DNA from: Terriglobia bacterium
Lineage (GTDB): Bacteria; Acidobacteriota; Terriglobia; Bryobacterales; Bryobacteraceae
Reading direction: 5' to 3'
Assembly (NCBI GenBank): GCA_020073445.1
Contig: JAIQFE010000044.1
Coordinates: 1-58,945, forward strand
Length of the DNA: 58,945 nucleotides
Part shown: positions 13,911 to 57,183 of the stretch, in pieces
Layout of the letters: each line of letters begins with the position of its first letter
Position numbering within the stretch: the stretch's first letter is position 1
Notes under the pieces: generated by a model
Told to the model about the DNA's origin: nothing
Seen by the model: only the letters and a program-made list of their open reading frames with translations
Databases searched by the model: none
Position numbers and translations under genes: made by a program

Positions 13911-14828
13911 TCATACGACGTTGGGGTCCATCTTGTCGTGGTGCGCCCAGCAGCCCTTAGCCGCGTCGTACAGGAACTGGTACGGGTCTTTCCACGTTCG
14001 GGCGAGGCCCTTCATGACGCCGCCTTCCAGCATGTCCTTGGGACCGTCGCCTTCCCGAACCTGTTTGAATAGGCGCGCCCGAACCTCTTCCATCATGTCG
14101 CGCTCGGCTTTAAATTCGGCCTTGGTCATGACGGGACCGTACGCCGGCACGATCCTGGTCTGTTCATTACTCAGTGCGAGCAGGGTATCCATCGCGTCCA
14201 CGCGTCCGCCGATCCAGGCTCCGGTGAACCAATCGAGCGCCGGATCGCGCAGCGGCGATGCGACGTCGCCCACCGCAAGAACATTCGAGGTCTTGAAGAA
14301 GACGTAGATGTCGCCGCTGGTGTGAGCCAGAGTCAGATAGCCGTAGTCGATCTGTTCCGCGCCGGCTTTCATGGAACCGGTGGTGAGAAACGTCTCCGTG
14401 GGGCGGGCGGCTTTCGGACGGGCTTTCTCGTAGCGGTCTTCAGCCGGAACCCAGTAATCGCTCGCCATCCATGCACGGGTGCGCTCGTGCGCGATGATTT
14501 TTGCTCCCGCTGCCGCGAACAGGTCGTTGTTGCCGGTCTGATCGACGTGATAGTGGGTGTTGAAAAGCGTCTGCACCTTCGCGCCCGCGGAAAGAGTCTT
14601 CAGTGCAGCTATCACCTGGTCGCCCGATTTAGGGGCGCCGCCATCCACCAGCACCAGGCCTTCGCCAGCGGAAAGAGCCAGCACATTACTGCCGCCGCCG
14701 TCGATCACCGCCAGGTTGTCGGTCAGGCGCCGGGCGCCAGCGGCCTGCTGCGCGGTGAGTATCCGGGGAGACGCCCAGACAGTGAGCGCACCCGCAGCCG
14801 CGCCTTTTAAGAATTTCCTGCGATCCAC
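13911..14828 (-). CDS. Tat-exported metallo-beta-lactamase-fold hydrolase inside module 1
   Basis: 305 residues beginning with a twin-arginine signal (DRRKFLKGAAAG), from GTG 14828 with CAGGAG upstream. The zinc motif is HYHVDQTGN (about 91-99), a variant of HxHxD, followed by AHERTRAWM and AVGDVAS. The overall form resembles quinoprotein-relay/SoxH-type MBL proteins, with a long helical C-terminus. It sits between the DUF1552 gene (18 bases upstream) and the ankyrin gene, so it is probably cotranscribed; modules 2 and 3 lack it. The substrate is unknown. Confidence 0.82.
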   Translation of the reverse strand: MDRRKFLKGAAAGALTVWASPRILTAQQAAGARRLTDNLAVIDGGGSNVLALSAGEGLVLVDGGAPKSGDQVIAALKTLSAGAKVQTLFNTHYHVDQTGNNDLFAAAGAKIIAHERTRAWMASDYWVPAEDRYEKARPKAARPTETFLTTGSMKAGAEQIDYGYLTLAHTSGDIYVFFKTSNVLAVGDVASPLRDPALDWFTGAWIGGRVDAMDTLLALSNEQTRIVPAYGPVMTKAEFKAERDMMEEVRARLFKQVREGDGPKDMLEGGVMKGLARTWKDPYQFLYDAAKGCWAHHDKMDPNVV

Positions 14829-16211: not shown

Positions 16212-18674
16212 TTAATTTGCCGCCCCAGACTTTGCCTCGCCTGTCTTTGGAGGGGGCGCTGCACCCTGCTTACGAAACGCATCCGTATTGACGATTCCCA
16301 AAACGATGGAAGAAAACTTGAAGTTGTCCTTCGCGGCTCCGCGGACCACCGCACGAACCTGAGGCATATCGAAATACTCCAGCTCCCGGTTGAGCGCGTA
16401 CATCATCAGCTTCTCGGTGAAAGCCTTGGTGAACATTTCGGGGCGCTGCGCCAGCTGCGCCTCCAGGTCCACGGGGCCACTGATCGGAATGCCGCTCGGC
16501 AGCACCGTGCTGGCATCGATGGGGGCGTTGTTCGCCTGGCGGTCCGTGGTCCGGAACTGCCCGATCGCATCAAAGGATTCGAGCGGCAAACCGACCGGAT
16601 CGATCACGCCATGGCACTGCCTGCAGACGGCCTTGTCGCGATGTTGCTCCAGGCGCGCGCGGACCGTCTTCGGCTGCTCTCCCGCCTTTTGCGAAAGGTC
16701 GGTTGCGGTGTCCGGAGGCGGAGGCGAGGGCGGCGTGCCCATGATCTTGTCGAGGACCCACGCTCCGCGGAGGACCGGAGACGTACGATCGCCGTAAGAC
16801 GTCCGCAGCTGCACCGCGGCCTTGCCCAGGAGGCCCCAGCGCTCTTTCTCCGCCAGCGTGACCCGGCGGAACTGCGAGCCGAGGACTCCGGAAATGCCGT
16901 AGTGGCGAGCCAGACGTTCGTTCAAGAAGGTGTGGTCGGCCGTCAGAAGATCCACCACATTCCGATCTTCGAGCAGGATGCTGCTGACGAAATCCTCGGC
17001 TTCGGTCGAAAAATCACGCCGCAGCTGATCGCTGAATCCGGGGAACAACGCCGGGTCGGGCTTCACCTGGTCGAGGGTGGTGAGGTTCAGCCACTTCATG
17101 GCGAAACTTGTGACCAGGCTGGAGGCCTTGGGATCGCCCATCATCCGCCGCACCTGCTTTTCCATTGCTCCGGGCTTAGTCAAGCCGCCCGCTGCGGCGA
17201 GCTTCAGCAATTCATCGTCCGGACCCGTGTTCCACAGGAAGAACGAAAGGCGCGAAGCCAGCTCCAGATCGGTCAGAGGGAATTCGGTGTTGGGAGGAGT
17301 GCCTTTGGGCCCGCGAATCGCCCGATATAAGAACTCGGGGCTAGCCAGCACCGCCGCGACAACCTGCTCGACTCCTTGATCGAAGCTTCCGCCACCCTGA
17401 CGTCCAGCTTCATAAAACGGCATGAGGCGGGAGACGTCTTCTGTAGTCACAGGTCGTCGAAAACCCCGGCGGGCCAGGTTTTCCGTGATCTGGCGGGCGC
17501 ACGAAAGTTCTTCGGCCGGTTTGGGATCGCAGACAAAGATCAGGGCGCGGCTGGCGGTTTTCGAAACACCTTTCGGATTATACGGTCCGACGATCTCGAC
17601 GCCGTCCCTGAGAACGGGCAGGCGCCCGTTGGCTTGCGCGATGCTGCCAGTCAGGCCGGCGAAGGGGGCGGGGTTGGCGACATTCTCATCGGTCTCCACA
17701 TGGGAGCGTTCGATGAAAGCGATCACGACGTCGCGCACGCCCGCCTGCACCTGCACGGGGATTTTCTGGAAGCGGTCCATGATCAGGGCGCGTCCATCGG
17801 CTCCTTTGCGATCTGCCAGTGCCTGGTCTGCCGGACCTCCAATGGTTTTGCGGAACACGATCTTGCCGTCAATCATGCCCACCAGCGTGCTTTCGTTCTC
17901 TAACGGACCGGTATACAGGCCCGCTCCAAGATCGGTCATGGTGATGCGATACTCGCCGTCCGCGGGGAAATTGTGTTTGAATCGGATGCCGCCGCGCGTG
18001 CCCAAGGGCAGGGGCTCGTCCGGATTCTGGTTGGCTGCGATGGAGTACTTGACGTTCGAAACACGGGGATTGGGACTGCTGACCGCGAGTTTCGCTATCT
18101 GCCGGGCGCCGGTAATGTACTGATCCAGGAACGCAGGCGACACGCTCAAGGCGACGGCAATGTTGTCAAACCCGCCGACTTGGATATCCTGCGGCAGGAT
18201 CTCCGTCGCTTTCACTTCCACACCCACCAACGCTTTCACCGTCGCAGCGTACTCCGTACGGTTCAGGCGCTGAACCGGAACATAGCCCGCCTTGGGACCC
18301 TTTGCATGGGAGTCGAGGTTGTTTTCCATCCAGGCGGTGAACGAATCGATATCCTTCTGCGAGGGTTGGGGAGTGCCCGGCGGAGGCATCAATCGTCCGC
18401 GCAGCTTGCGCAAGGCCTTCTCCCAGACCTGCGCGTCATCCGCCGCGGATTGAAGATCCAGGCCATCGAACGCAATGCCGCCCGTCTTCACGCGAGAGTT
18501 GTGGCAGCCGACGCAGTAGGTGTTCAACATGGCGCGATATTGATCCGCTCCGTTCGCTGCAGGAGCGCTCCTTGCTGGAGTCTGCGCGGGAGTTTGCCCC
18601 ACGGCCCGGTTTTGCACGACCGCCAGGGAAGCGATCAGAACCACCAGAGCGCTTGCATAAATGAAACGCTTCAT
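16212..18674 (-). CDS. Exported diheme DUF1592-family (Planctomycete-cytochrome-type) protein, module 1
   Basis: 820 residues from ATG 18674. Sec signal, then a cytochrome-like domain with CVGCH (about 54-58) and WEKALRKLRGRLMPPPG. These are followed in order by DUF1587 (RLNRTEYAATVKALVG), a beta-rich region, DUF1595 (FRRPVTTEDV...SPEFLYRAI), DUF1592 (ELASRLSFFLWNTGPDDELL), DUF1588 (DRTSPVLRGAWVLDKIMG...VCRQCHGVIDPVG) and DUF1585 (EKLMMYALNRELEYFDMPQVRAVVR). Two CxxCH sites imply two covalent haems, so it is a periplasmic redox protein. The substrate is unknown; family members are abundant in planctomycetes and acidobacteria. Confidence 0.9.
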   Translation of the reverse strand: MKRFIYASALVVLIASLAVVQNRAVGQTPAQTPARSAPAANGADQYRAMLNTYCVGCHNSRVKTGGIAFDGLDLQSAADDAQVWEKALRKLRGRLMPPPGTPQPSQKDIDSFTAWMENNLDSHAKGPKAGYVPVQRLNRTEYAATVKALVGVEVKATEILPQDIQVGGFDNIAVALSVSPAFLDQYITGARQIAKLAVSSPNPRVSNVKYSIAANQNPDEPLPLGTRGGIRFKHNFPADGEYRITMTDLGAGLYTGPLENESTLVGMIDGKIVFRKTIGGPADQALADRKGADGRALIMDRFQKIPVQVQAGVRDVVIAFIERSHVETDENVANPAPFAGLTGSIAQANGRLPVLRDGVEIVGPYNPKGVSKTASRALIFVCDPKPAEELSCARQITENLARRGFRRPVTTEDVSRLMPFYEAGRQGGGSFDQGVEQVVAAVLASPEFLYRAIRGPKGTPPNTEFPLTDLELASRLSFFLWNTGPDDELLKLAAAGGLTKPGAMEKQVRRMMGDPKASSLVTSFAMKWLNLTTLDQVKPDPALFPGFSDQLRRDFSTEAEDFVSSILLEDRNVVDLLTADHTFLNERLARHYGISGVLGSQFRRVTLAEKERWGLLGKAAVQLRTSYGDRTSPVLRGAWVLDKIMGTPPSPPPPDTATDLSQKAGEQPKTVRARLEQHRDKAVCRQCHGVIDPVGLPLESFDAIGQFRTTDRQANNAPIDASTVLPSGIPISGPVDLEAQLAQRPEMFTKAFTEKLMMYALNRELEYFDMPQVRAVVRGAAKDNFKFSSIVLGIVNTDAFRKQGAAPPPKTGEAKSGAAN

Positions 18675-18783
18675 ATCTTGCAACCTATTGCGTTATCAGG
18701 GATTTGCAGTCGCATGTCCATCCTAGGGAGCCATACTCTTTTAGCACAAAAAAACGTCGGCAGCCAGGGGCTGAAGCGGCCGC

Positions 18784-20897: not shown

Positions 20898-21857
20898 ATG
20901 AAAGCCGCCGTCTATACCGGCAAAGGGGCTGTCCAAGTCCAGGACGTTGAGAAGCCTGTCCCCGCCGACAATGAAGTCCTGGTCCGGATACATGCTACAA
21001 CCATCTGCGCCGCGGACTACAGGGTCAAGAGCTTTCCGCCAGTCGTGGGATGGCTCATCGGCCTACGGAAGGGCAAGATTCTCGGGATGGAGTTGTCCGG
21101 AACGGTGGAGTCCGTCGGCCCAGCCGTGACCCGCTTCCGCCCCGGCGACCAGGTATTCGGGGGGACTGGATTCAAGCTCGGCACGCACGCGGAATACGCA
21201 TGCACGCTCGAAAGCCGGCTGGAGATGAAGCCGGTCAATATGACGCTTGAGGAAGCCTCCGCGGTCATGTTTGGCGGCCTTACCGCGTTGTGCTTTCTCC
21301 GGCAGGGAAGGATACAGTCTGGACAGAACGTGCTGGTCTACGGCGCGTCCGGGAGTGTCGGTGTCTTCGCGGTTCAACTGGCGAAGCACTTCGGTGCGCG
21401 CGTCACAGGCGTGTGCAGCACAGCGAATCTGGACCTGGTAAAGTCGCTCGGCGCCGACGAGGTGATCGACTACACCAAGGAAGATTTTTCGAAAGCAGGC
21501 CGCGTCTATGACATGGTGGTTGAGACGGTCGGCAAGGCCGGCTACTCCCGCTGCGTGAAAACCTTGAAGCGAGGCGGTCCCTTGGTTCTGATCGCGATTT
21601 CCGGCGGACTGCTGTCGATATTCGGCGACATCGTTCGACAGCAGTGGATTTCGATCACCGGCGCCGCGAAAATCGTCGGCGGCCTGCCGCGCATCGCCCC
21701 TGGGGACCTGAGTTTCCTCAAAGGTCTTATCGAGGCCGGCGAGCTGAAGACGACGATCGATAGACGCTATTCACTCGACGACATTGCCGAGGCGTTCCGC
21801 TATGCGGAGGCCGGGCACAAGAAGGGCCACGTCGTTATAAATGTCACGTCCGCTTAG
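20898..21857 (+). CDS. NAD(P)-dependent quinone oxidoreductase-like enzyme (MDR superfamily, zinc-free)
   Basis: 319 residues, cytoplasmic. N-terminal GroES-like domain (MKAAVYTGKGAVQVQDVEKP; GMELSGTVESVG) and a Rossmann domain with the NADPH-binding motif VYGASGSVGVFAVQLAK at about 149-165, then GADEVIDYTKEDF. The zinc-ligand cysteines of true alcohol dehydrogenases are absent, so it probably reduces quinones or enones. ATG 20898 has no Shine-Dalgarno; an AT-rich TATTAT lies only 4 bases before it, suggesting a leaderless transcript. It overlaps the convergent PQQ gene by 4 bases. Confidence 0.88.
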   Translation: MKAAVYTGKGAVQVQDVEKPVPADNEVLVRIHATTICAADYRVKSFPPVVGWLIGLRKGKILGMELSGTVESVGPAVTRFRPGDQVFGGTGFKLGTHAEYACTLESRLEMKPVNMTLEEASAVMFGGLTALCFLRQGRIQSGQNVLVYGASGSVGVFAVQLAKHFGARVTGVCSTANLDLVKSLGADEVIDYTKEDFSKAGRVYDMVVETVGKAGYSRCVKTLKRGGPLVLIAISGGLLSIFGDIVRQQWISITGAAKIVGGLPRIAPGDLSFLKGLIEAGELKTTIDRRYSLDDIAEAFRYAEAGHKKGHVVINVTSA

Positions 21858-23716
21858 TTCGTATGCGGCGCTTCGACCGGTGGCGGCGGGGGCGGACCCT
21901 TGGGGGCGCCCTTACCAGCGCCTCGGCCAAACTGAGGTGGCGGCGGGGCCGGAGGCATTTGAGCTGTGCCGCCTACCTTCATCGCCATGAACTGGGTGCC
22001 GGTCGCGAACCCGATGTACTGCGTGTTGTCGACCATGTAGGTGATCGGGGGAGCCCCACCAGGGACGTTGAACGGCAGCGCCAATAGTTCGTCGCCCGTA
22101 TCCGCCTTGTAGACGTACAGCGTGTTGCCGGCAGTCTGAAACACGAGGTTGCTGGCCGTGGTCATGGTGCCGCCGGTCGACCCGCTACCCCGGCCCGGCT
22201 TCACCCACTTGATCTGGTTGGTCTTGGGATCGCGGGCCTGCAAACCGCCTCGGCCCACAGTAGCTGCGTCGGGACCCCAGATGGGCATGGGGGTGGTCCT
22301 CTTGTCTTGACCGCCGCGACCCAGCCCATGCGCTCCGCCGCCCGCCTTAGGATCGGGTTCCTTTGCGGCGTTGAAGGTGTAACTGCCCGCGGAGTAGGGA
22401 AGGTAGACTAATCCGGCGTTCGGGTTGTAAGACATCGGTGCCCAGTTGTGCGCGCCGCCGCCGCCCGGATACATCACCACCGAATTTGTCTGATCGTAGT
22501 AGGCGGTCTGGTTGATGATCGGCTTGCCGTTGTTCTTCTTGTCGAAGCCTGTTACCCAGTTCACGGGGACGAAGGGCTCGGCCGAGATGAACTGGCCATT
22601 AGTGCGGTCCAGGATGTAGAACACGCCGCTCTTGGGAGCCTGCATGATGACCTTGCGTGTCTTGCCTTCGATCTGGATATCGGCCATGATGAAGCCGCCC
22701 ACCGAGTCCAAGTCCCAGGCGTCGCCCGGAACCGTCTGGTAATACCACTTTAGCTTGCCGGTCTTCGCATCCACGGCGACGATCGAGCAGGTATAGAGGT
22801 TATCCCACTTACCCCACTCCGATTTCGGGATGCCGCGCATTTCCTCCGGCCACGGCTCGGGGTTACCCGTGCCGGCAAATACCAGGTCCGTATCGGGGTC
22901 ATACACCAGGCCGTCCCATACCGAGCCGCCGCCGCCGTACTTCGCCCAGTCGCCGACCCAGGTCTTGGATGCCCTTTCCTGATCCTTGTCCTCCATGGGC
23001 TGGCCGGGGGCAGGCGGAACCGTGTGGAACTTCCACGCTAGCGACCCATCCTTTAGGTTGTACGCCGCGAAGAAGCCGCGAATGAAGTACTCGCCGCCGC
23101 CCACGCCTACGATCACCTTGTCGCCCGCGATGCGCGGCGCGATGGTGAATGAGTAGTACTGGTTAATGTCCGCGACCTTACTCTGCCACAGCTCCTTGCC
23201 GCTGATGGCGTCGAGCGCGATCAGACGGGCGTCGTTGGCCGCCAGGATGATCTTTCCCTCGTAGATCGCGAGTCCGCGGTTGTGCGTGCCGCAGCACATG
23301 TGGCTCTGCGTGGCGGGATCGATCTTGGCGTCGTACATCCATTTCTGCTGGCCGGTGCGCGCATCCAGCGCGTACACGATGCTATTGTCCATGGACTGGT
23401 AGATCGTGTTGTTCCACATCAGAGGCGTGCCTTCGGTGCCCCCGCGGCCGCCCGCCGCGGCGATCGGCGCCGACCAGGCCAATCCCAGCTTGCCGACGTT
23501 GGTCTCGTCGATTTGCTTCAGCTGGCTGTAGCGCTGTTCCGTTTGGGTCAGGCCGTAGGTGAGCCATGTGCCGGGCATGGCGTCCTTGGCGGTACCGGCG
23601 GTCTTGAGAATCTTAGCGTCCACCTCGCGCGGCTGCTGGGCTGTGAGAGTGGATATCAGAGCGACTGTGGCAATGACGCCAGCGGCCAACATGGCCTTGA
23701 TGGTAGACGTGGTCAA
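21854..23716 (-). CDS. Exported PQQ alcohol-dehydrogenase-like quinoprotein
   Basis: 620 residues from TTG 23716 (AAGGGA 8 bases upstream); ATG 23692 is the alternative. Sec signal ending TLTAQQ. An eight-bladed propeller with the hallmarks of methanol/ethanol dehydrogenases: adjacent cysteines in SHMCCGTHNRG (the vicinal disulphide over PQQ), WVGDWAKYGGGG, and PGDAWDLDSVGG. The first Asp there is the expected base, and a second Asp two residues on is the arrangement typical of lanthanide-using enzymes (inference). The Pro/Gly-rich tail is unusual. It has no haem motif; the divergent DUF1592 diheme protein 54 bases away is a possible partner. Confidence 0.86.
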   Translation of the reverse strand: MTTSTIKAMLAAGVIATVALISTLTAQQPREVDAKILKTAGTAKDAMPGTWLTYGLTQTEQRYSQLKQIDETNVGKLGLAWSAPIAAAGGRGGTEGTPLMWNNTIYQSMDNSIVYALDARTGQQKWMYDAKIDPATQSHMCCGTHNRGLAIYEGKIILAANDARLIALDAISGKELWQSKVADINQYYSFTIAPRIAGDKVIVGVGGGEYFIRGFFAAYNLKDGSLAWKFHTVPPAPGQPMEDKDQERASKTWVGDWAKYGGGGSVWDGLVYDPDTDLVFAGTGNPEPWPEEMRGIPKSEWGKWDNLYTCSIVAVDAKTGKLKWYYQTVPGDAWDLDSVGGFIMADIQIEGKTRKVIMQAPKSGVFYILDRTNGQFISAEPFVPVNWVTGFDKKNNGKPIINQTAYYDQTNSVVMYPGGGGAHNWAPMSYNPNAGLVYLPYSAGSYTFNAAKEPDPKAGGGAHGLGRGGQDKRTTPMPIWGPDAATVGRGGLQARDPKTNQIKWVKPGRGSGSTGGTMTTASNLVFQTAGNTLYVYKADTGDELLALPFNVPGGAPPITYMVDNTQYIGFATGTQFMAMKVGGTAQMPPAPPPPQFGRGAGKGAPKGPPPPPPVEAPHTN

Positions 23717-23770: not shown

Positions 23771-26056
23771 GTGCCTACCCCCTCGCTTGGCAGCAAGAGC
23801 CACGGCGATTCCGGATATCATGACGATGTGGCGTCAACGCCCAAAATCGCGCTGACAGCGGCCAGCGGCCTGATGCTGTTCATGGGTGTGTTCATAGGCG
23901 GCGTGTTAACGGGCATAGACGCTCAGCAGCCCGCGCGCGTCCAGCCCGAAGAAACCATCAACAAGTACTGCACCGGTTGTCATAACCAGCGCGCTCGCGT
24001 GGCTGGGCTGGTTCTGAACACCGCGACCGTCAGTTCCGACCCCGCCACCTGGGAAAAAGTCGTTCGCAAGCTGCGGATGCGTACCATGCCGCCCGCTGGT
24101 GTGCCCCGGCCGGACGACGCTACGTATAGCCAGACCGCCGCATGGCTCGAAACCCGGCTCGACCAGGCCGCGGCGGCGAATCCCAATCCGGGCCAGCCGC
24201 TGCTCCATCGTCTGAATCGCACCGAGTACGCGAACGCCATCCACGATCTTCTCGACCTGAACGTCTATGCCACCGCGTTGTTGCCGCCTGACGATTCCGC
24301 CTTCGGATTCGACAATATCGCCGACGTGCTGGGCGTTTCGCCGGTGCTTCTGGAGCGCTATCTCTCGGCTGCCGACCGCATCAGCAGCCTGGCGGTCGGG
24401 GACCCGGAAACCGAGCCGGGCTCCGACACTTACCGGGCCCGCCAGGATCTTTCGCAGGATCAGCACATCGAGGGCTTGCCGCTGGGGACGGTCGGCGGTC
24501 TGGCGGTCGAGCACACGTTCCCGCTGGACGCCGAATACGAGTTCCGGCTGAGCCTTTTTCGCAACAACCTCGAAATCATGCGCGGCATCGAGCGCCCGCA
24601 TCAAATCGAATTGTCGATCGACGGGGAGCGCGTCTTCCTGCGCCCCGTGGGCGGCCCCGAAGATCTGGCGCGCATGCGTAATCCGACCGACGGCTCAGAT
24701 GCCATCACAATAATGGGTCCGTACCAGGCCACCGGAGCCGGCGACACGCCGTCCCGCAAGCGCATCTTTACGTGCCGGCCGGCGGCCGTTTCGCATGAAG
24801 CCGCGGAAGAAACGCGCTGCGCCCGCCAGATCCTGGAGCCGTTGGCGCGCAGGGCTTATCGCAGGCCAGTGAACGATGCCGACATGCGGCCTCTGTTCGA
24901 TTTCTTCCAGCAAGGCCGTGCAAAGCGCGATTTCGAGAGCGGCATTCAGTTCGGCCTGCGCCGCATGCTGGCGAGCCCTGCTTTCGTCTTCCGTGCCGAG
25001 ACGAGTCCGGACAGCGTCAAGCCCGGAGCGCTGCACCCTATCGAGCCCATCGAGCTGGCCTCGCGCCTTTCGTTCTTCTTGTGGTCGAGCATCCCCGACG
25101 AGGAATTGATCGCCGTCGCTGCCAGCGGCCAACTTGGGCACCCGGATGTGCTCGAAAAGCAAGTCCGCCGCATGCTGGCCGACCCGCGTGCGGAACGGTT
25201 CGTCAGCAACTTCGCGGGCCAGTGGCTGCAGCTGCGTAATCTGCGCAACGCGCGTCCGAACTCGGCCGACTTTCCCGATTTTGACGACAACCTTCGCCAG
25301 GGATTCCGGCGCGAAACCGAGCTCTTCTTCGCCAGCATTCTTCAAGAGGATCGCAGTGTGCTGGACCTGCTGCGTGCCGACTACACATTCCTGAACGAAC
25401 GCCTGGCGAGGCATTACGGAGTGCCAGGAATTTACGGCAGTAACTTCCGGCGGGTCGCGGTGACCGAGGATGCGCGCCGGGGCTTCCTGGGGCAGGGAAG
25501 CATCCTGACGGTTACGTCGCATGCCGACCGCACCTCGCCTGTGGTGCGCGGCAAGTGGATCCTCGAGAACCTCCTGGGTGCCCCGCCGCCGCCTCCTCCT
25601 CCGGAAGTGCCGCCTCTGCCCGAGAACACCGAAGATGCTCCTCCGCGGACCTTGCGAGCCCGCCTGGAATTGCATCGCGAGAATGCCGTCTGCGCCAGCT
25701 GCCACAAGGTGATGGATCCCATTGGTTTCGCGCTCGAAAACTTCGACGCGACCGGCGCGTGGCGCGCGGAGGAGTTCGGCGCGCCGATCAATGCCACCGG
25801 CCAGCTCGCCGACGGCACGAATGTGGATGGGGTGGTCAGCCTGCGCAACGCGATCCTGGCGCGGCCCGAGGTATTCGCCGGCACGGTGACGGAAAAGCTC
25901 ATGATCTATGCGCTGGGGCGAGGCTTGAACTCGTACGACATGCCCGCTGTGCGCGCGATCGTGCGCGACGCAGCCTCCCACAATTTTCGTCTTTCGTCGA
26001 TCATAATGGGAGTGACCCGTAGCGTGCCGTTCCAGATGCGAAAGAAGCCGGAATAG
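23771..26056 (+). CDS. Exported diheme DUF1592-family protein, module 2
   Basis: Up to 761 residues. The start is uncertain: GTG 23771 or GTG 23828, the latter closer to the signal anchor (ALTAASGLMLFMGVFIGGVL). The domain order matches module 1: CTGCH (67-71), WEKVVRKLRMRTMPPAG, DUF1587 (RLNRTEYANAIHDLLD), DUF1595 (YRRPVNDADM...SPAFVFRAE), DUF1592 (ELASRLSFFLWSSIPDEELI), DUF1588 (DRTSPVVRGKWILENLLG...VCASCHKVMDPIG) and DUF1585 (EKLMIYALGRGLNSYDMPAVRAIVR). Two c-haem sites. It leads a three-gene operon with the DUF1552 and ankyrin genes. Confidence 0.9.
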   Translation: MPTPSLGSKSHGDSGYHDDVASTPKIALTAASGLMLFMGVFIGGVLTGIDAQQPARVQPEETINKYCTGCHNQRARVAGLVLNTATVSSDPATWEKVVRKLRMRTMPPAGVPRPDDATYSQTAAWLETRLDQAAAANPNPGQPLLHRLNRTEYANAIHDLLDLNVYATALLPPDDSAFGFDNIADVLGVSPVLLERYLSAADRISSLAVGDPETEPGSDTYRARQDLSQDQHIEGLPLGTVGGLAVEHTFPLDAEYEFRLSLFRNNLEIMRGIERPHQIELSIDGERVFLRPVGGPEDLARMRNPTDGSDAITIMGPYQATGAGDTPSRKRIFTCRPAAVSHEAAEETRCARQILEPLARRAYRRPVNDADMRPLFDFFQQGRAKRDFESGIQFGLRRMLASPAFVFRAETSPDSVKPGALHPIEPIELASRLSFFLWSSIPDEELIAVAASGQLGHPDVLEKQVRRMLADPRAERFVSNFAGQWLQLRNLRNARPNSADFPDFDDNLRQGFRRETELFFASILQEDRSVLDLLRADYTFLNERLARHYGVPGIYGSNFRRVAVTEDARRGFLGQGSILTVTSHADRTSPVVRGKWILENLLGAPPPPPPPEVPPLPENTEDAPPRTLRARLELHRENAVCASCHKVMDPIGFALENFDATGAWRAEEFGAPINATGQLADGTNVDGVVSLRNAILARPEVFAGTVTEKLMIYALGRGLNSYDMPAVRAIVRDAASHNFRLSSIIMGVTRSVPFQMRKKPE

Positions 26057-26062
26057 AGACGG

Positions 26063-27367
26063 ATGTTTATCACCAAGCGATCGCTCGCCCGCAGAACGTT
26101 CCTGCGCGGCCTCTCGGCTACGGTCGCCCTGCCGTTTCTCGACGCGATGGCTCCCGCGCTCACCGCGGCACCGGTCGCCCCCAAGCGCCTTGGTTTCGTT
26201 TACTTTCCGAACGGCGCCATCATGGATAGCTGGATCCCCAAAACGGCGGGCTCGGGATTCGAGTTTACTCCGACCTTGGCGCCGCTCGCGCCCTATCGCG
26301 ATCATTTGACGGTGATCGGCAACCTGGCTCGCGCGGGAACCACCATCGGCGATCATGCCGTGGCGGCCGCCGGCTGGCTCACCGGCGTTTACGCCAAGAA
26401 GACGGAAGCCGAAGATGTACTGGCCGGGCCCACCATCGACCAGATCATCGCCCGCCAGATCGGACAGGACACAGTCTTCCCATCGCTCGAACTGGCTACG
26501 GAGGATTTCACCGGCTACATCGGCGGCTGCACTCCCGGCTTCAGTTGCACCTACATGAACACGCTCTGCTGGGCCGGGCCGACCAGTCCTCTGCCCATGG
26601 AGATCAACCCGCGCGTGGCCTTCGAGCGCATGTTCGGTCGCGCCGGATCGATCGCACAACGGCAGGCCCGACAGAGCGAAGACCGCAGCATTCTCGATTC
26701 GGTGGTGGAGGATGCCGCTCGCCTGCGGATCGGGCTGGGCGCCCGGGACCGCAACCGCTTGAGCGAGTATCTCGACCAGATTCGCGAAATCGAACGCCGT
26801 ATCGAGCGTGTCCAGACACACAGCAACTCGGCTGAACTGGCGATCGACACGCCCCAGGGCATCCCGGAGTCTTTCGAGGAGCACGCCGCATTGATGTTCG
26901 AGCTCCAGGCGATCGCCTATCAGGCGGACATCACTCGCGTAGTGACGTTCATGCTATCGCGCGAAGCCAGCCAGCGCACGTATCCGCAGATCGAGGTCAG
27001 CGAGCCGCATCATACGATCTCGCACCACGGGAACGATCCGCAGAAGAAGGCGATGAACGCGCGGATCAACCTGTATCACATGCAGCAATTCGCGAAGTTC
27101 GTCGAGAAGCTGCGCACGACTCCCGACGGCGATGGAAGTCTGCTGGACCATTCGCTGATTTTCTACGGCGGCGGCATGGGCGACGGCAACGCGCATGCGA
27201 CCGATCCGTTGCCGCTGGTTGCCGTAGGCGGGCTGGCGGGCGCGGGGCAACGCCATCTGCTGCAGCCTCCTAAGACCCCAGTGGCGAATCTGTGGATCGG
27301 CATCGCGGACAAGTTCGGCGTCAACGTGGATCACCTCGGAAACAGCAATGGCGTGGTCAGTATCTAG
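26063..27367 (+). CDS. Tat-exported DUF1552 protein (module 2)
   Basis: 434 residues with twin-arginine signal ARRTFLRGL...ALPFLDAMAPA. The body carries the family landmarks LGFVYFPNGAIMDSW, QIREIERRIERV, ELQAIAYQADITRVVTFMLSREAS, ISHHGNDPQKK, GSLLDHSLIFYGGGMGDGNAHA and VANLWIGIADKFGV. It starts 6 bases after the DUF1592 stop and its last 20 bases overlap the ankyrin gene, so translation is likely coupled along the operon. Its biochemical activity is unknown. Confidence 0.88.
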   Translation: MFITKRSLARRTFLRGLSATVALPFLDAMAPALTAAPVAPKRLGFVYFPNGAIMDSWIPKTAGSGFEFTPTLAPLAPYRDHLTVIGNLARAGTTIGDHAVAAAGWLTGVYAKKTEAEDVLAGPTIDQIIARQIGQDTVFPSLELATEDFTGYIGGCTPGFSCTYMNTLCWAGPTSPLPMEINPRVAFERMFGRAGSIAQRQARQSEDRSILDSVVEDAARLRIGLGARDRNRLSEYLDQIREIERRIERVQTHSNSAELAIDTPQGIPESFEEHAALMFELQAIAYQADITRVVTFMLSREASQRTYPQIEVSEPHHTISHHGNDPQKKAMNARINLYHMQQFAKFVEKLRTTPDGDGSLLDHSLIFYGGGMGDGNAHATDPLPLVAVGGLAGAGQRHLLQPPKTPVANLWIGIADKFGVNVDHLGNSNGVVSI

Positions 27368-51569: not shown

Positions 51570-52892
51570 CTAGAGATCCACTCTGCCTGTACTCGCTCCG
51601 AGCTTATCGATCTCCGCGCCGCCCAGGTGGGCGATGGACAGCAGCAGGTTCGCCGTTGGCGTATCCTTCGCGACGATGTGGCGATTGCCTTTGAGCCGAC
51701 CCTGAGCGCCACCCACCAGGACAGCGGGCGGATTGTTCCGGTCGTGGGCGTTGCCGTTGCTCATGCCGCTGCCCCAATACAGAACCGAGTGATCCAGAAT
51801 GTTACCGTCGCCCTCTTTCGTGGCCTTCAGCTTGTCGAGGAAGTCCGCGAACTTTTGGATTTGGTACGTCGCGATCTTGGCGTACTTCGCGAGCTTTTCC
51901 GGATCGTTGCCGTGATGCGAGATGGTGTGGTGTTGCTCGGGAATTCCGATGTGCCCGTACGCCCGATCGCTAGCCTCATGACCGGTCATGAACGTGAACA
52001 CGCGGCTGATGTCGCCCTGATACGCCAGGTGCATCAGGTTATAGGTAATGTTCATGTGATCGTCGAACGCATCCGGCAAGCCGATGGGAGCTTCCGGATT
52101 CCCGGTGATGGTGTTGAGGCGGCTCTCCATGCGTTCCAGCTGCTTCTCTACGTCACGAATGTTGCCCATGTACTCGTCGAGGATGGCGCGATCGGACGCG
52201 CCCAGCGAGCCTTTGAGCTTCGCGGTTTCCTCAGTCACCGAGTCGAGGAGGCTCTGCTTTTCCTTCAGGCGGGCGAAGCGCCGTTCGGTCGAATCCGTTT
52301 CGCCGAACATGCGCTCGAAGGTCACGCGCGGATTGATCCCGACCGGCAGCGGACTTTCGTCATCGCGCCAGGAGAGCGTATTGAAGAACGTGCAGGCGAA
52401 ACCGTCGCAGGCGCCGACGGCGGTACCCATGTCCTCGGTGCCGACTTCGATCGACCGCAGCGGCGTATCGCCGGCTACCTGATCGGCGATGAACTGGTCG
52501 ACGGTTTTCTTGGATTCGATCTTGCCGAAGGAGTCGCCTCTGCCGTCGCGGCGGACGGCTGGCCCGACGCCGTTCAGGAACGCTGAGCTTGCCCCGAGGT
52601 GGACCGATTCGCCCCACGGCGCTTTCATCTTGCTGACGGTCACCAGTTGATTGCGGAACTGCTCCAGCGGCTGCATCACCGGCTTGAACGCGAAGTCGCT
52701 CCCTTCCTTCTCGGGATGCCAGGTGTCGGGCCACACGCCGCACGGGAAGTAGACCGCGCCGAAGCGGAACGGCGACGTCGGTGCCGCCGAGAGGGCAGGA
52801 ATCATGGCGTCCAGGAATGGCAATGCGACCGTGGCGCCCATAGTGCCTCGCACGAACGCGCGGCGAGAAAGGTGCTTCTTCGTAATGAACAT
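51570..52892 (-). CDS. Tat-exported DUF1552 protein (module 3)
   Basis: 440 residues; AAGGAG precedes ATG 52892. Twin-arginine signal SRRAFVRGTMGATVALPFLDAMIPA. Landmarks shared with the two paralogues: FGAVYFPCGVWPD, DACDGFACTFFNTLSWRDDESPLP-like loop, DEYMGNIRDVEKQLERME, NLMHLAYQGDISRVFTFMTGHEASDRAYGHIG, HTISHHGNDPEKLAKYAKI, GNILDHSVLYWGSGMSNGNAH, LLLSIAHLGGAEIDKLG. It follows the DUF1592 gene after 2 bases and ends the operon before a strong terminator. Activity unknown. Confidence 0.88.
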   Translation of the reverse strand: MFITKKHLSRRAFVRGTMGATVALPFLDAMIPALSAAPTSPFRFGAVYFPCGVWPDTWHPEKEGSDFAFKPVMQPLEQFRNQLVTVSKMKAPWGESVHLGASSAFLNGVGPAVRRDGRGDSFGKIESKKTVDQFIADQVAGDTPLRSIEVGTEDMGTAVGACDGFACTFFNTLSWRDDESPLPVGINPRVTFERMFGETDSTERRFARLKEKQSLLDSVTEETAKLKGSLGASDRAILDEYMGNIRDVEKQLERMESRLNTITGNPEAPIGLPDAFDDHMNITYNLMHLAYQGDISRVFTFMTGHEASDRAYGHIGIPEQHHTISHHGNDPEKLAKYAKIATYQIQKFADFLDKLKATKEGDGNILDHSVLYWGSGMSNGNAHDRNNPPAVLVGGAQGRLKGNRHIVAKDTPTANLLLSIAHLGGAEIDKLGASTGRVDL

Positions 52893-52894
52893 AG

Positions 52895-55459
52895 CTACTC
52901 CTTAGTTGATTTTGCCACTTTTACGGTCTCAGCCGGCCCCTTGACGGTTTCGGCCGATTCCGGCGCTGCTTCCAACTTGGTGCGCATCTGGAAAGGTGCG
53001 CTCTCAACAATTCCCATGACGATGGTGGAGAGCCGGTAATCGTTTTGCGCGGCTTTCTTCACGATCCGGCGAACCACCGGCATATCGCTTGGCTCGAGGC
53101 CCCGGCCCAGCGCGTAGGTCAGCATCTTTTCGGTGACAACGGTCACGAAGGCGTCAGGCCGACTCTGGATTGCCTCCCGCAGCGCCACGGGACCGTTGAC
53201 CGCTGTGCCGTCCGCCAACGTGCCCGCGACGTCGAGGGGCGCGCCATCGGCGTCTTTATCGCGCCACTGCCCCACCGAGTTAAAGTTCTCAAGAGCAAAT
53301 CCGGCCGGATCGATCACACGATGGCAGCCCGCACAGGGCTGGTTCTTGCGGTGCAATTCCAGCTGCGCGCGCACTGTTTTGGCAGTCGTCGGCGCGTTCT
53401 TGTTGCTTTCCTCGAGCGAGGGGACATCCGGCGGAGGAGGGGGCGGGGGAGTGTTCAGGAAGGTGTTCAGCACATACTTCCCGCGGAACACCGGCGAGGT
53501 CCGCGTGGCGACCGAAGTCATCGACAGGATGCTCCCTTGCCCCAGCAGACCGCGGCGGTTGGGATCGGTAAGCTTCACGCGCCGGAATTGCGGGCCGTAA
53601 ACGCCCTTGATACCGTAATTTCTGGCGAGCCGCTCGTCGATGAACGTATAGTCCGCGTTCAAAAGGTCAAGCGTACTGTGGTCTGCGCGCAAAATGTACC
53701 CGAAGAAGAGTTCGGTCTCCTTCCGGAATCCTTTACGCGTGTTGTCGTCGAAATCGGGGAACAGCAGGAGGTCGGGAACCACCTTCGCCTTCAGATTGCG
53801 AAGCTGCAGCCACTGTCCCGTGAAGTTTTCGACCAGGGCATCGGTGCGTTCGTCCCCGAGCATGCGGTGCACTTGTTCGGCGAACACTGCCGGCTCCCGC
53901 AGCCGGCCGGCCGCCGCCAGGTCCAGCAGTTTCTCATCGGGGATGCTGCTCCACAAGAAGAAGGACAGGCGCGAGGCGAGCTCGATATCGCTCACCGGGT
54001 GCGCTACGCCGGCGCGGGCAGTGGCCGGATCCTTTTCGATTCGATACAGGAAGTTCGGGCTCGACAGGACGCGCGCCACACCGGCGCGGATGCCATCGTC
54101 GAAATTGCCCTTGTTGTCCCGCGACCGCTTGTAAAACGACATCGGCGCTTCAATGTCCGCGGCAGTCACAGGACGCCGGTACGCGCGGCGTGCCAGATTC
54201 GAGAGGATCTTGGTCGCGCAGGCCGTTTCGTCCAGAGTCGCACTGGTTGCGCTCGGGCTTTTCGCAGCGGGATGGCAGACAAAGAGCCGTTCCCGGCTGG
54301 GCCCTTCGCCGACGCCGCGCACGTTGTACGGGCCGTCGATCGACACGGTTCGGAGCCTCGGCAGGCCGCCGATCATATGAACTTCCTGGCTATCTCGCCG
54401 CGCCGGCTCCCACACGTCCTGCAACTGGGATGGCCGCTCCTTCCACGTGAATCCGACATCGTGAGGACCGGCGGTGACCCGCACGCGTCCTGTCATCCTC
54501 TTATCGATAACGGGCTGCGCCGCGGCCAAATCGGCCGCCTGCATCTCGTGGTCCTTGGGGCCGCCAATCGGCGCCGTATACACCTCGGTGCCATCCACGG
54601 TGATCACGAAGGTGTTCGGCGTCTCATTACCTTCCACGCCGGCGTACCCTTCCTGCACACCGCGGACGAGCCGGCCCGACAATTTATACTCGGCGTCCGC
54701 CGGAAACACGTGGCGGATCACGGTGCCGCCCACGGTACCGAGCGGCAGGCCGTCGATATATCCGTTCTGGCTGAATTCGCGGCTGATGGAATGCTCGGTC
54801 GTCCCGGGCTTCACCTTTGGATCGCCCACGGCCATCGCGGCGACGCGCTGCGCGGCCGTTACGTAACCTTCTAATAGCAGCGGCGACGTTTTGAGCGACG
54901 TCGCAATGTTGTCGAACCCGAACTCCGCGCCGTCGGTCGGCAGCAGGTCGGACACGTCGAGGTCGACGGCGAGAAGATCGCGTATCGCGTTGGCATACTC
55001 GGCGCGATTCAGACGATGGACCACGAAGCGGCCCGGCGTGCTCTTGCCTTCCCAGGCACGGTCGAGCGACGCGGCAAGCCAGCCCGTAAAGCCCGCAAAT
55101 TCGGCCTCGGTCGGACGCGGCATACCTGGAGGCGGCATCGCCCGCACACTCAGCTTCCGGATGACTCGCTCCCACGTCCCGGCATGACCCAGAAGATCGT
55201 CGAAAGCCGCCCCTTCGAGATTGACCGGACCCTCCGCAGGATTCGCCGTGCGGGCATTGTGGCAAGACACGCAGTACTTATTGACTAACGCGCGATACTT
55301 GGCTGCATCCGCGCTCGCAGTTGCGGACACCGCGGCAGAGGTCACCGGGGAAGCAGCCGGTCGGGAAGCAGTCTGCGCCACCAGCGACGCACCGATGCCC
55401 GATACGGCTAGCGCTGCCGTGACGCCGATCTTGCGAGCTGTGCTCTTCGGAATCTTCAT
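52895..55459 (-). CDS. Exported diheme DUF1592-family protein, module 3
   Basis: 854 residues. Signal IGVTAALAVSGIGASLVAQ; CVSCH at 63-67, WERVIRKLSVRAMPPPG, DUF1587 (HRLNRAEYANAIRDLLAVD), a beta-rich region with the FVITVDGTEVYTAPIGG segment, DUF1595 (YRRPVTAADIEA...SPNFLYRIE), DUF1592 (ELASRLSFFLWSSIPDEKLL), DUF1588 (TRTSPVFRGKYVLNTFLN...PCAGCHRVIDPAG) and DUF1585 (EKMLTYALGRGLEPSDMPVVRRIV). Its ATGA start overlaps the stop of the upstream ankyrin gene, so the two are translationally coupled. A periplasmic redox protein with two predicted c-haems; the substrate is unknown. Confidence 0.9.
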   Translation of the reverse strand: MKIPKSTARKIGVTAALAVSGIGASLVAQTASRPAASPVTSAAVSATASADAAKYRALVNKYCVSCHNARTANPAEGPVNLEGAAFDDLLGHAGTWERVIRKLSVRAMPPPGMPRPTEAEFAGFTGWLAASLDRAWEGKSTPGRFVVHRLNRAEYANAIRDLLAVDLDVSDLLPTDGAEFGFDNIATSLKTSPLLLEGYVTAAQRVAAMAVGDPKVKPGTTEHSISREFSQNGYIDGLPLGTVGGTVIRHVFPADAEYKLSGRLVRGVQEGYAGVEGNETPNTFVITVDGTEVYTAPIGGPKDHEMQAADLAAAQPVIDKRMTGRVRVTAGPHDVGFTWKERPSQLQDVWEPARRDSQEVHMIGGLPRLRTVSIDGPYNVRGVGEGPSRERLFVCHPAAKSPSATSATLDETACATKILSNLARRAYRRPVTAADIEAPMSFYKRSRDNKGNFDDGIRAGVARVLSSPNFLYRIEKDPATARAGVAHPVSDIELASRLSFFLWSSIPDEKLLDLAAAGRLREPAVFAEQVHRMLGDERTDALVENFTGQWLQLRNLKAKVVPDLLLFPDFDDNTRKGFRKETELFFGYILRADHSTLDLLNADYTFIDERLARNYGIKGVYGPQFRRVKLTDPNRRGLLGQGSILSMTSVATRTSPVFRGKYVLNTFLNTPPPPPPPDVPSLEESNKNAPTTAKTVRAQLELHRKNQPCAGCHRVIDPAGFALENFNSVGQWRDKDADGAPLDVAGTLADGTAVNGPVALREAIQSRPDAFVTVVTEKMLTYALGRGLEPSDMPVVRRIVKKAAQNDYRLSTIVMGIVESAPFQMRTKLEAAPESAETVKGPAETVKVAKSTKE

Positions 55460-57183
55460 GGAGCGCTCGTCACCGCCGCCTTTGGAGTATCTTTCTTTTC
55501 CTTGTCGTCGGTTACTTTCTTATCGTCAGTAACTTTCTTGTCATCCTTGGCTGGGAGCGGCGGAGGCTGTGGCGCCGGATCGTTCGGACCAAGATGCATC
55601 AGCTCCCGCAAGGCCGCGACGATCTCCTCTTTCGAATTGCGCTTCGGCTTATAAACGTCCAAATCTCCCATGTCGGCGGGGTTCGGTTTTTTAGGTGCCT
55701 CGGCCAGAAGGAGGGGCGTAAGATTGTCCTTGTTGACGGCGTCCAGCTTTGCGCCGGCGGCTACAAGCGCGCGAATCATCCCTACGTGCTCCTCTTGCAC
55801 GGCCTGGTGGAGTGGCGTCGAGCCGTCGGACGCCTTGACGTTAGGATTGGCACCGGCGGCCAGGAGCAGCTGGAGAGCCTCGAGCGGATCGCGGCTGCCA
55901 GTCTCGCGGAAGACCGGAGGACCAATGCGGGTGAACCCGGGCCCCCCGGCGATCGGTGCGCCTTGGCCACCTTTTATAGCGGCCATAAGGGGCGTTCGGC
56001 CCACGTTCGGATTCGGCCGGCCAGGTTTGCCGTCCTTAGACTTGACGTCGCTGGGGCTCCACTCGATCTTCGCGCCGTGAGCTAGCATCAGCTTCAGGAC
56101 TTCGACATCGGCCGCGGTTGCCGCGCGATAGAACGGCGAGCTGTTGATCGCCGAGCCGCAGCATAGTGTGGTCGAGTGTAACGCGCCGATGAACGGCTTG
56201 TTCACGTCTGCGCCGACGTCGAGAAGCACCTTAACCAGACCCAACGCGGTCAGGTTGTTCGGATGGTTGGGCTGCAGCCGCGAGCCGTCGTGCGCGCGCA
56301 TGTCGATCGTGGCGTCGTGCATGTCCACGGCGAAGAACAAGGCTCCGTCGTTGGGGTCGGCGCCGAGGTCGAGCAATGTTTTGGCCAGATCGAAGCGGTC
56401 ATTGACGACGGCGATGACGGTCGCGGTGGCGCCATCGGCGTTGGTCAGCTTCGGATCGGCGCCGCCGGCGATCAGGGCCCGGGCGACATCCTCGTGTCCG
56501 TTGCGAACGGCAAACATCAGTGCCGTAAAGCCGCCGGAAGGATGGTCGGCGTTCTTGCGATCCGTGAGAGTGGAGACGTGCGCCTTTTGGTTCGGATCCG
56601 CGCCTGCGGCCAGCAGCGTCTTCACCACCTCCACATGGCCTTCGGCGGACGCCCACATCAAAGCGGTCTCTTCCTGGAACTGATCCGTGGCATTGACGAA
56701 CGAGCCTTTAGAAAGCAGTAACTTGACGGCGTCCACGCGGCCGGTGCGTGCCGCAGCCATAAGCGGCGTTTCGCCCTCAGCATGCCAACGCGTCGGCTCC
56801 GCTCCCGCATCGAGCAGTGCGCGCATGACCTCTACGTCGCCGTTGCGGCTCGCCTGCAGAAGAGGCGTGACGCCGTAATGGTTCGCGGTGTCAACCACTG
56901 CGTTGGCGGCCAGAAGCGCCTTCGTCATATCCACGTTCGAGTGGTAGGCAGCCCACAAAAGCGCGGTGGATCCGTCGTTGGCGGCTATGTTGACATCCGC
57001 GTGTTCTTTGATCAGCTTGCGCACCGCGGCCAGATCGTCACCCTTGGCGGCGTCCGCCACCGCGGCTATGTTGGAAGCTGCATGCAGGAGGACGTTGGGC
57101 GTGAAGACGAGCCCAAGCAGCATTGGCAGGCACCACCGTTTGCGCCAAACATGTTTTGCAGTCGCTCTTTTCGCCGATTGCAT
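55456..57183 (-). CDS. Exported ankyrin-repeat protein (module 3)
   Basis: 575 residues; GGGAGGAG precedes ATG 57183. Signal WCLPMLLGLVFTPNVLLHA. About eleven ankyrin repeats from DLAAVRKLIKEHADVNIAANDG to IRALVAAGAKLDAVNK, with typical TALMWASAEGHVEVVKTLLAAGAD units. An insert at about 360-430 contains SALHSTTLCCGSAINSS-like cysteines and a Gly/Pro-rich stretch. The C-terminal tail is highly charged and repetitive (KDDKKVTDDKKVTDDKEKK). It heads the operon and is coupled to DUF1592 by a 4-base overlap, whereas in modules 1 and 2 the ankyrin gene is last. Presumed periplasmic scaffold. Confidence 0.86.
   Translation of the reverse strand: MQSAKRATAKHVWRKRWCLPMLLGLVFTPNVLLHAASNIAAVADAAKGDDLAAVRKLIKEHADVNIAANDGSTALLWAAYHSNVDMTKALLAANAVVDTANHYGVTPLLQASRNGDVEVMRALLDAGAEPTRWHAEGETPLMAAARTGRVDAVKLLLSKGSFVNATDQFQEETALMWASAEGHVEVVKTLLAAGADPNQKAHVSTLTDRKNADHPSGGFTALMFAVRNGHEDVARALIAGGADPKLTNADGATATVIAVVNDRFDLAKTLLDLGADPNDGALFFAVDMHDATIDMRAHDGSRLQPNHPNNLTALGLVKVLLDVGADVNKPFIGALHSTTLCCGSAINSSPFYRAATAADVEVLKLMLAHGAKIEWSPSDVKSKDGKPGRPNPNVGRTPLMAAIKGGQGAPIAGGPGFTRIGPPVFRETGSRDPLEALQLLLAAGANPNVKASDGSTPLHQAVQEEHVGMIRALVAAGAKLDAVNKDNLTPLLLAEAPKKPNPADMGDLDVYKPKRNSKEEIVAALRELMHLGPNDPAPQPPPLPAKDDKKVTDDKKVTDDKEKKDTPKAAVTSAP

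Follow-up and report, generated by a model that had tools for sequence, protein, structure and literature searches.

Exported ankyrin proteins as possible dedicated partners of DUF1592-DUF1552 gene pairs in a Terriglobia bacterium and other bacteria

The DNA stretch analysed here, referred to as the window, comprises the 58,945 nucleotides of contig JAIQFE010000044.1 (assembly GCA_020073445.1) from a Terriglobia bacterium of the Acidobacteriota. It contains three loci, or modules, each with genes for a diheme DUF1592 protein, a Tat-type DUF1552 protein and an ankyrin protein carrying a signal peptide, which are co-directional and closely packed. These trios had been recognised in a previous reading of the sequence only, and both open reading frames (ORFs) and Pfam matches agree with it, as they do with the ATGA overlap of the ankyrin and DUF1592 genes and the 2-base gap before the DUF1552 gene described for module 3. 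In all three modules, DUF1592 and DUF1552 score above the Pfam cut-off, are adjacent and share a strand. It is proposed, with a confidence somewhat short of even, that the three genes constitute one exported functional unit, in which the ankyrin acts as a dedicated periplasmic partner (an assembly factor or a scaffold) of a two-protein redox enzyme. This proposal is based on the closely packed operons, the signal peptides and twin-arginine motifs, the two heme sites of DUF1592, the alkaline-phosphatase-type fold modelled for DUF1552, the near one-to-one gene numbers, the agreeing evolutionary distances and the maintenance of the linkage. The enzyme pair is already known; the trio with ankyrin was not found in the literature searched.

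The genome to which the window belongs, a 6.58 Mb draft, yields 17 DUF1552 and 18 DUF1592 matches, together with 99 Ank_2 matches that were grouped by hand into 24 ankyrin loci. Each of the 17 DUF1552 genes has an ankyrin locus at most 2936 bases from its domain match, and these are 17 different loci. Since regions less than 4 kb away from an ankyrin locus make up 3.6% of the genome at most, the probability of this arrangement by chance would be about 4e-25 if sites were independent. All 17 of these ankyrins, whose N-termini appear clear on visual inspection, and 72 of 77 module ankyrins from other sources satisfy a signal-peptide rule; this rule is permissive, since 113 of 262 other ORFs in the stretches read also satisfy it. 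Seven ankyrin loci lie outside the modules, one of them (contig C6, 44-45 kb) lying about 6 kb from one. With a profile built from the 17 modules, which favours the members used to build it, module ankyrins score between 540 and 666 bits and the best of six other ankyrin loci 216, the locus on contig C64 having been left unscored.

A scan across genome contigs covered the best 80 of 560 confirmed stretches, a selection that biases the sample towards close relatives. These 80 loci hold 88 DUF1552 genes or pieces. When at least 6 kb is available on both sides, an ankyrin lies within 6 kb of 35 of 36 DUF1552 genes (34 if each ankyrin serves one module only), and DUF1592 accompanies 35 of 36; among the remaining 52 genes or pieces, ankyrin is present in 40. 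In five genomes reached through module loci, and therefore chosen as module holders, the counts are based on 91 of 92 DUF1552 matches, the remaining one being another fragment of a gene already counted, and on the 89 of 106 ankyrin matches that reach at least 285 bits. A full-length family ankyrin was found within 6 kb of 81 of these 91 DUF1552 genes.

One of the five, the closed chromosome G064 (record OY282382.1, locus L071), allows a direct comparison with background, which had been set as the test of the association in the sequence-only reading. Ankyrin lies near 32 of its 40 DUF1552 matches, one of the 32 being a divergent gene beside the ankyrin of another module; 5000 circular shifts gave 3.2 on average and never more than 9. 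Together with the 17 of 17 in the window's genome, this result places ankyrin near DUF1552 well above background. Chance, or a general abundance of ankyrin genes, was considered as the cause and rejected on the basis of these shifts, the census of the window's genome and the scores in 60 sampled Acidobacteriota genomes described below.

Gene numbers of the two families run close to each other. DUF1552 matches amount to 40 in G064 (including a few fragments or divergent copies), 17 in G063, 17 in the window's genome, 15 in G061, 14 in G060 and 6 in G062, while family ankyrins of at least 285 bits amount to 36, 18, 17, 15, 14 (fragments included) and 6, respectively. A sixth genome, G065 (VFZL01, locus L056), has 35 DUF1552 matches, the ankyrin search covering the other genomes. 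Its title, Acidimicrobiia, may be wrong, since its DUF1552 proteins group among those of Acidobacteriota and Pseudomonadota. At locus L056 two divergent DUF1592-DUF1552 modules flank a single ankyrin gene, which is possibly shared by them.

The ankyrin partner had been called obligate, a claim that does not hold for DUF1552 in general. Among 60 evenly drawn Acidobacteriota genomes, DUF1552 occurs in seven, the window's included, and ankyrin accompanies only 4 of the 13 DUF1552 loci outside the window's genome (one of the four being a fragment at a contig end), or 3 of the 8 that are fully flanked. The converse relation is close to strict in this sample, in which at most 25 ankyrin candidates were scored per genome: the 20 matches of at least 434 bits (17 in the window's genome and one each in G001, G023 and G045) all lie beside DUF1552, and the next match reaches 212 bits. 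It is looser in the five module-holding genomes, where DUF1552 stands beside 80 of 89 family ankyrins and nine are unlinked. DUF1552 is present in 3 of 114 Gammaproteobacteria; outside G061, the best ankyrin match in this class reaches 190 bits (at most 13 candidates scored per genome), and the DUF1552 genes of G116 and G139 appear, judged from these genome-wide scores, to be without an ankyrin partner. On plasmids, 15 records contain DUF1552, and one place was read in each of five of them. Ankyrin is present at one Novosphingobium locus and absent at one Planctomyces, two Sphingobium and one Novosphingobium loci (three of the four sphingomonad loci being without it).

A FastTree phylogeny of 133 DUF1552 proteins, in which some outer branches are long and their placement unsure, gathers the ankyrin-linked loci in one clade of 121 rows with a support of 99. 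The exception, L146_4455, uses the ankyrin of its neighbour, and the other 11 rows outside the clade are without ankyrin or of unknown state. The ankyrin partner is thus characteristic of a single DUF1552 clade, within which it has also been lost, and the term obligate applies there at most. When one ankyrin is assigned per module, 100 rows have it, 18 fully flanked rows do not and 15 are of unknown state, and the fewest changes of ankyrin state on the tree are seven.

The three proteins share their history. In 16 modules of the window's genome (one was omitted, its DUF1592 being cut by the end of the stretch), distance matrices correlate with r of 0.88 for DUF1552 and ankyrin, 0.79 for DUF1552 and DUF1592, and 0.82 for ankyrin and DUF1592, values reached by none of 2000 permutations; in 85 modules r is about 0.815, reached by none of 500. 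The interpretation given in the sequence-only reading is supported in part: the association exceeds background and the history is shared, but the co-occurrence is not constant across DUF1552, and the periplasmic oxidising complex supposed there would be a candidate only.

It has to be noted that such agreement is explained by shared inheritance. If the ankyrin gene were an operon passenger with no functional tie to its neighbours, inheritance of the whole operon, which is possible, would alone give the agreeing distances. However, the linkage has been kept through at least 14 changes of ankyrin gene order or strand among the 100 linked rows, which argues for a functional tie, and linked ankyrins occur in records labelled Acidobacteriota, Pseudomonadota and Actinomycetota. 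Moreover, gene numbers stay near equal even in genomes that have unlinked copies, and no ankyrin locus of the window's genome lies near the sister-type genes, namely the three DUF1553 genes and the sole CCP/MauG place. A passenger gene is thus regarded as very unlikely, and the kept linkage suggests that the three proteins cooperate beyond the inner membrane, with the oxidation of an imported compound as their probable task.

Of 100 assigned modules, 71 have the ankyrin gene downstream of DUF1552. In the other 29 it is located upstream, beyond DUF1592 or on its side (15 on the same strand and 14 on the opposite one). Partial correlations tie ankyrin distances to both partners, and the results disagree on which enzyme the ankyrin follows. 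Both the location of the gene at either end of the pair and the correlation retained with both enzymes would be expected from a scaffold tying DUF1552 to DUF1592, and perhaps to receptors or cytochromes, instead of an assembly or protection factor. DUF1592-DUF1552 pairs without ankyrin exist, however, and a purely scaffolding role is considered a doubtful, if serious, candidate. A role in regulation or specificity, with the ankyrin selecting or withholding the substrate of each paralogous enzyme, seems rather improbable: there is a single ankyrin per module, more variable than the enzymes (mean identity of 37% vs 45 and 47% in the 16 modules), but the faster evolution of solenoid repeats may suffice to account for this.

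Two CxxCH motifs are found in each of the three DUF1592 proteins of the window and in 103 of 108 long DUF1592 proteins, and this diheme character makes the family plausibly redox-active. In module 3 the order is cytochrome c (a Pfam match below cut-off), DUF1587, a beta sandwich (residues 217-382), DUF1595, DUF1592, DUF1588, which carries the second CxxCH, and DUF1585; the beta sandwich is possibly a carbohydrate-binding-like domain (CBM35/36/6-like). For the whole DUF1592 protein, Foldseek gave no known fold at E<=0.001, which does not show a new fold, and searches by sequence for relatives of solved structure, covering DUF1592 and DUF1552, gave none that was credible. The only lone DUF1592 gene of the window's genome (C96:22615) is short, with neither DUF1552 nor ankyrin found in the stretch read; the same was observed for a short DUF1592 protein of 435 aa at L028:9283-10590.

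DUF1592 and DUF1552 are co-stranded in all 127 linked cases, with a gap of at most 100 bases in 110. In the alkaline phosphatase superfamily, the usual metal-site set consists of Asp plus Ser/Thr/Cys. Structural modelling predicts this alkaline-phosphatase/sulfatase fold for DUF1552, at about 10% identity to members such as NPP and sulfatases, and with such a fold the protein need not be an oxidase. DUF1552 appears to have no obvious set of that kind; it has conserved histidines (98, 322, 326, 327, 383 and 405), whose mapping onto superfamily residues is putative. In an alignment of 56 sequences, H98 is kept in 55, and the column after strand 1 holds N in 30 and H in 19.

The catalase KatB binds its heme non-covalently, and the setting of Cj1386 and KatA is cytoplasmic; the ankyrin proteins of these two systems are the nearest reported precedents. 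AnkB has been reported, as quoted in a later paper, to be required for full KatB activity in Pseudomonas aeruginosa (Howell et al. 2000, cited in PMC2830190), and the ankyrin protein Cj1386 to take part in heme trafficking to KatA in Campylobacter jejuni (Flint et al. 2012, cited in PMC3349705). As with AnkB-KatB, an exported ankyrin shares its operon with a heme protein, here the putative diheme enzyme DUF1592. The partner, however, is not a catalase or peroxidase but a diheme c-type protein plus a protein of predicted alkaline-phosphatase fold, in many paralogous copies, and the enzyme differs from that of Cj1386 as well. An arrangement resembling katB-ankB is present in the window's genome on contig C9 (L022:8504-12713), where a signal-peptide ankyrin follows, 115 bases downstream on the same strand, a gene with two peroxidase domains that is, by its size, a catalase-peroxidase; this ankyrin reaches 216 bits with the 17-module profile. 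The two precedents and this peroxidase-ankyrin pair favour a role of the ankyrin in assembly, protection or scaffolding of the diheme protein, DUF1552 being the putative second part of the enzyme.

Regarding the enzyme pair, its adjacency had been taken as known, and published data concur. Pairs of DUF1592 (PSD4/PSCyt3) and DUF1552 from Planctomycetes, Verrucomicrobia and others are described in He et al. 2017 (PMC5615132), where we infer that the neighbour of PSCyt3, not named in the main text, is DUF1552, and plasmid records of Planctomyces and Sphingobium have the two families annotated next to each other. The modules share these two adjacent families with the known pairs, the Planctomyces plasmid locus being without ankyrin. 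As the sequence-only reading had supposed, no description of the trio was met: literature joining ankyrin with DUF1552, or with DUF1592, DUF1588, DUF1595, DUF1585 or HXXSHH, was not found in a search outside which most subscription papers fall.

The genes of the three modules are listed in Table 1. Each module has closer relatives elsewhere, which rules out local duplication as their origin: module 1 has one on another contig of the same genome (74% identity) and module 3 one in a Bryobacterales record (94%), and the DUF1552 protein of module 2 has its nearest relative (73%) in L066, a record titled gammaproteobacterium, an indication of transfer between phyla. Promoter and terminator signals around module 3 show no excess over shuffled sequence.

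Table 1. Genes of the three modules in the window
Module	Product	Position	Strand	Basis or remark
1	Ankyrin protein, 558 aa	12203-13879	-	Signal peptide
1	Metallo-beta-lactamase-fold protein	13911-14828	-	Pfam; between DUF1552 and ankyrin
1	DUF1552 protein, 446 aa	14847-16187	-	Pfam
1	DUF1592 diheme protein	16212-18683	-	ATG start probably 18674
2	DUF1592 diheme protein	23771-26056	+	Pfam, CxxCH motifs
2	DUF1552 protein	26063-27367	+	Pfam
2	Ankyrin protein, 457 aa	27348-28721	+	Signal peptide; 20-base overlap with DUF1552 gene
3	DUF1552 protein, 440 aa	51570-52892	-	Twin-arginine signal; 2 bases after DUF1592
3	DUF1592 diheme protein, 854 aa	52895-55459	-	Pfam, CxxCH motifs
3	Ankyrin protein, 575 aa	55456-57183	-	Signal peptide; ATGA overlap with DUF1592 start

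The three window ankyrins have weak NCBIfam matches to injected ankyrin effectors, from which a secreted effector acting on eukaryotic hosts or prey could be imagined. Nevertheless, these matches reach at most 120 bits versus curated cut-offs of 450 to 1400 and reflect the repeats, the proteins carry signal peptides and the genes lie in redox operons. The injected-effector reading was consequently rejected, and a secreted effector aimed at such targets is considered extremely improbable.

Families of neighbouring genes were counted in 94 loci and listed when present in at least five, with no background control. They include a secreted family without Pfam match and with a PDLSGSW-like motif (17 loci; e.g., L040:5283-6005), TonB/Oar-type outer membrane proteins (16), metallo-beta-lactamase-fold proteins (11, that of module 1 among them), PQQ dehydrogenases (10), NHL propellers (10) and cytochrome c (5), and none reaches a fifth of the loci. 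This set fits a periplasmic oxidation of imported compounds, and names none of them. A PQQ-dependent dehydrogenase-like gene (21854-23716) adjoins module 2. In addition, a locus without ankyrin on a Sphingobium herbicidovorans plasmid (L125) joins a shorter DUF1592 and DUF1552 with genes for cytochromes c and b, and oxygenase-type genes (VOC, flavin monooxygenase, Rieske) lie a few kb away. This locus may hint at the path of the electrons and at the type of substrate.

If the ankyrin is a dedicated partner of the enzyme pair, its solenoid would bind the diheme DUF1592, and possibly DUF1552, in the periplasm, and, by analogy with AnkB and the catalase KatB, it may be needed for the assembly, stability or protection of DUF1592. 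TonB-type receptors would import a small molecule, which may be a carbohydrate or a glycoside; DUF1552 might prepare or cleave it at a putative metal site, and DUF1592 would oxidise it, with soluble cytochromes as electron acceptors. In this scheme, every paralogous module would act on a substrate of its own and be served by an ankyrin that matches it.

Module-carrying bacteria include some from soil and water. More tentatively than the unit itself, it can be proposed that these organisms exemplify a widespread exported redox repertoire, in which up to dozens of DUF1592-DUF1552 paralogues per genome would oxidise many imported compounds, most of them with a dedicated periplasmic ankyrin for assembly or specificity; if this were true, the repertoire would be comparable in its modular logic to SusCD gene clusters. 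Some environmental genomes contain dozens of matches to DUF1592 and DUF1552, two families without an assigned function, and the matched ankyrin provides a handle on both, predicting a three-protein complex. It may also be the missing component for expressing these enzymes. Finally, the modules point to a wider role of exported ankyrins as partners of heme enzymes, for which the literature search gave only the catalase cases of AnkB and Cj1386.
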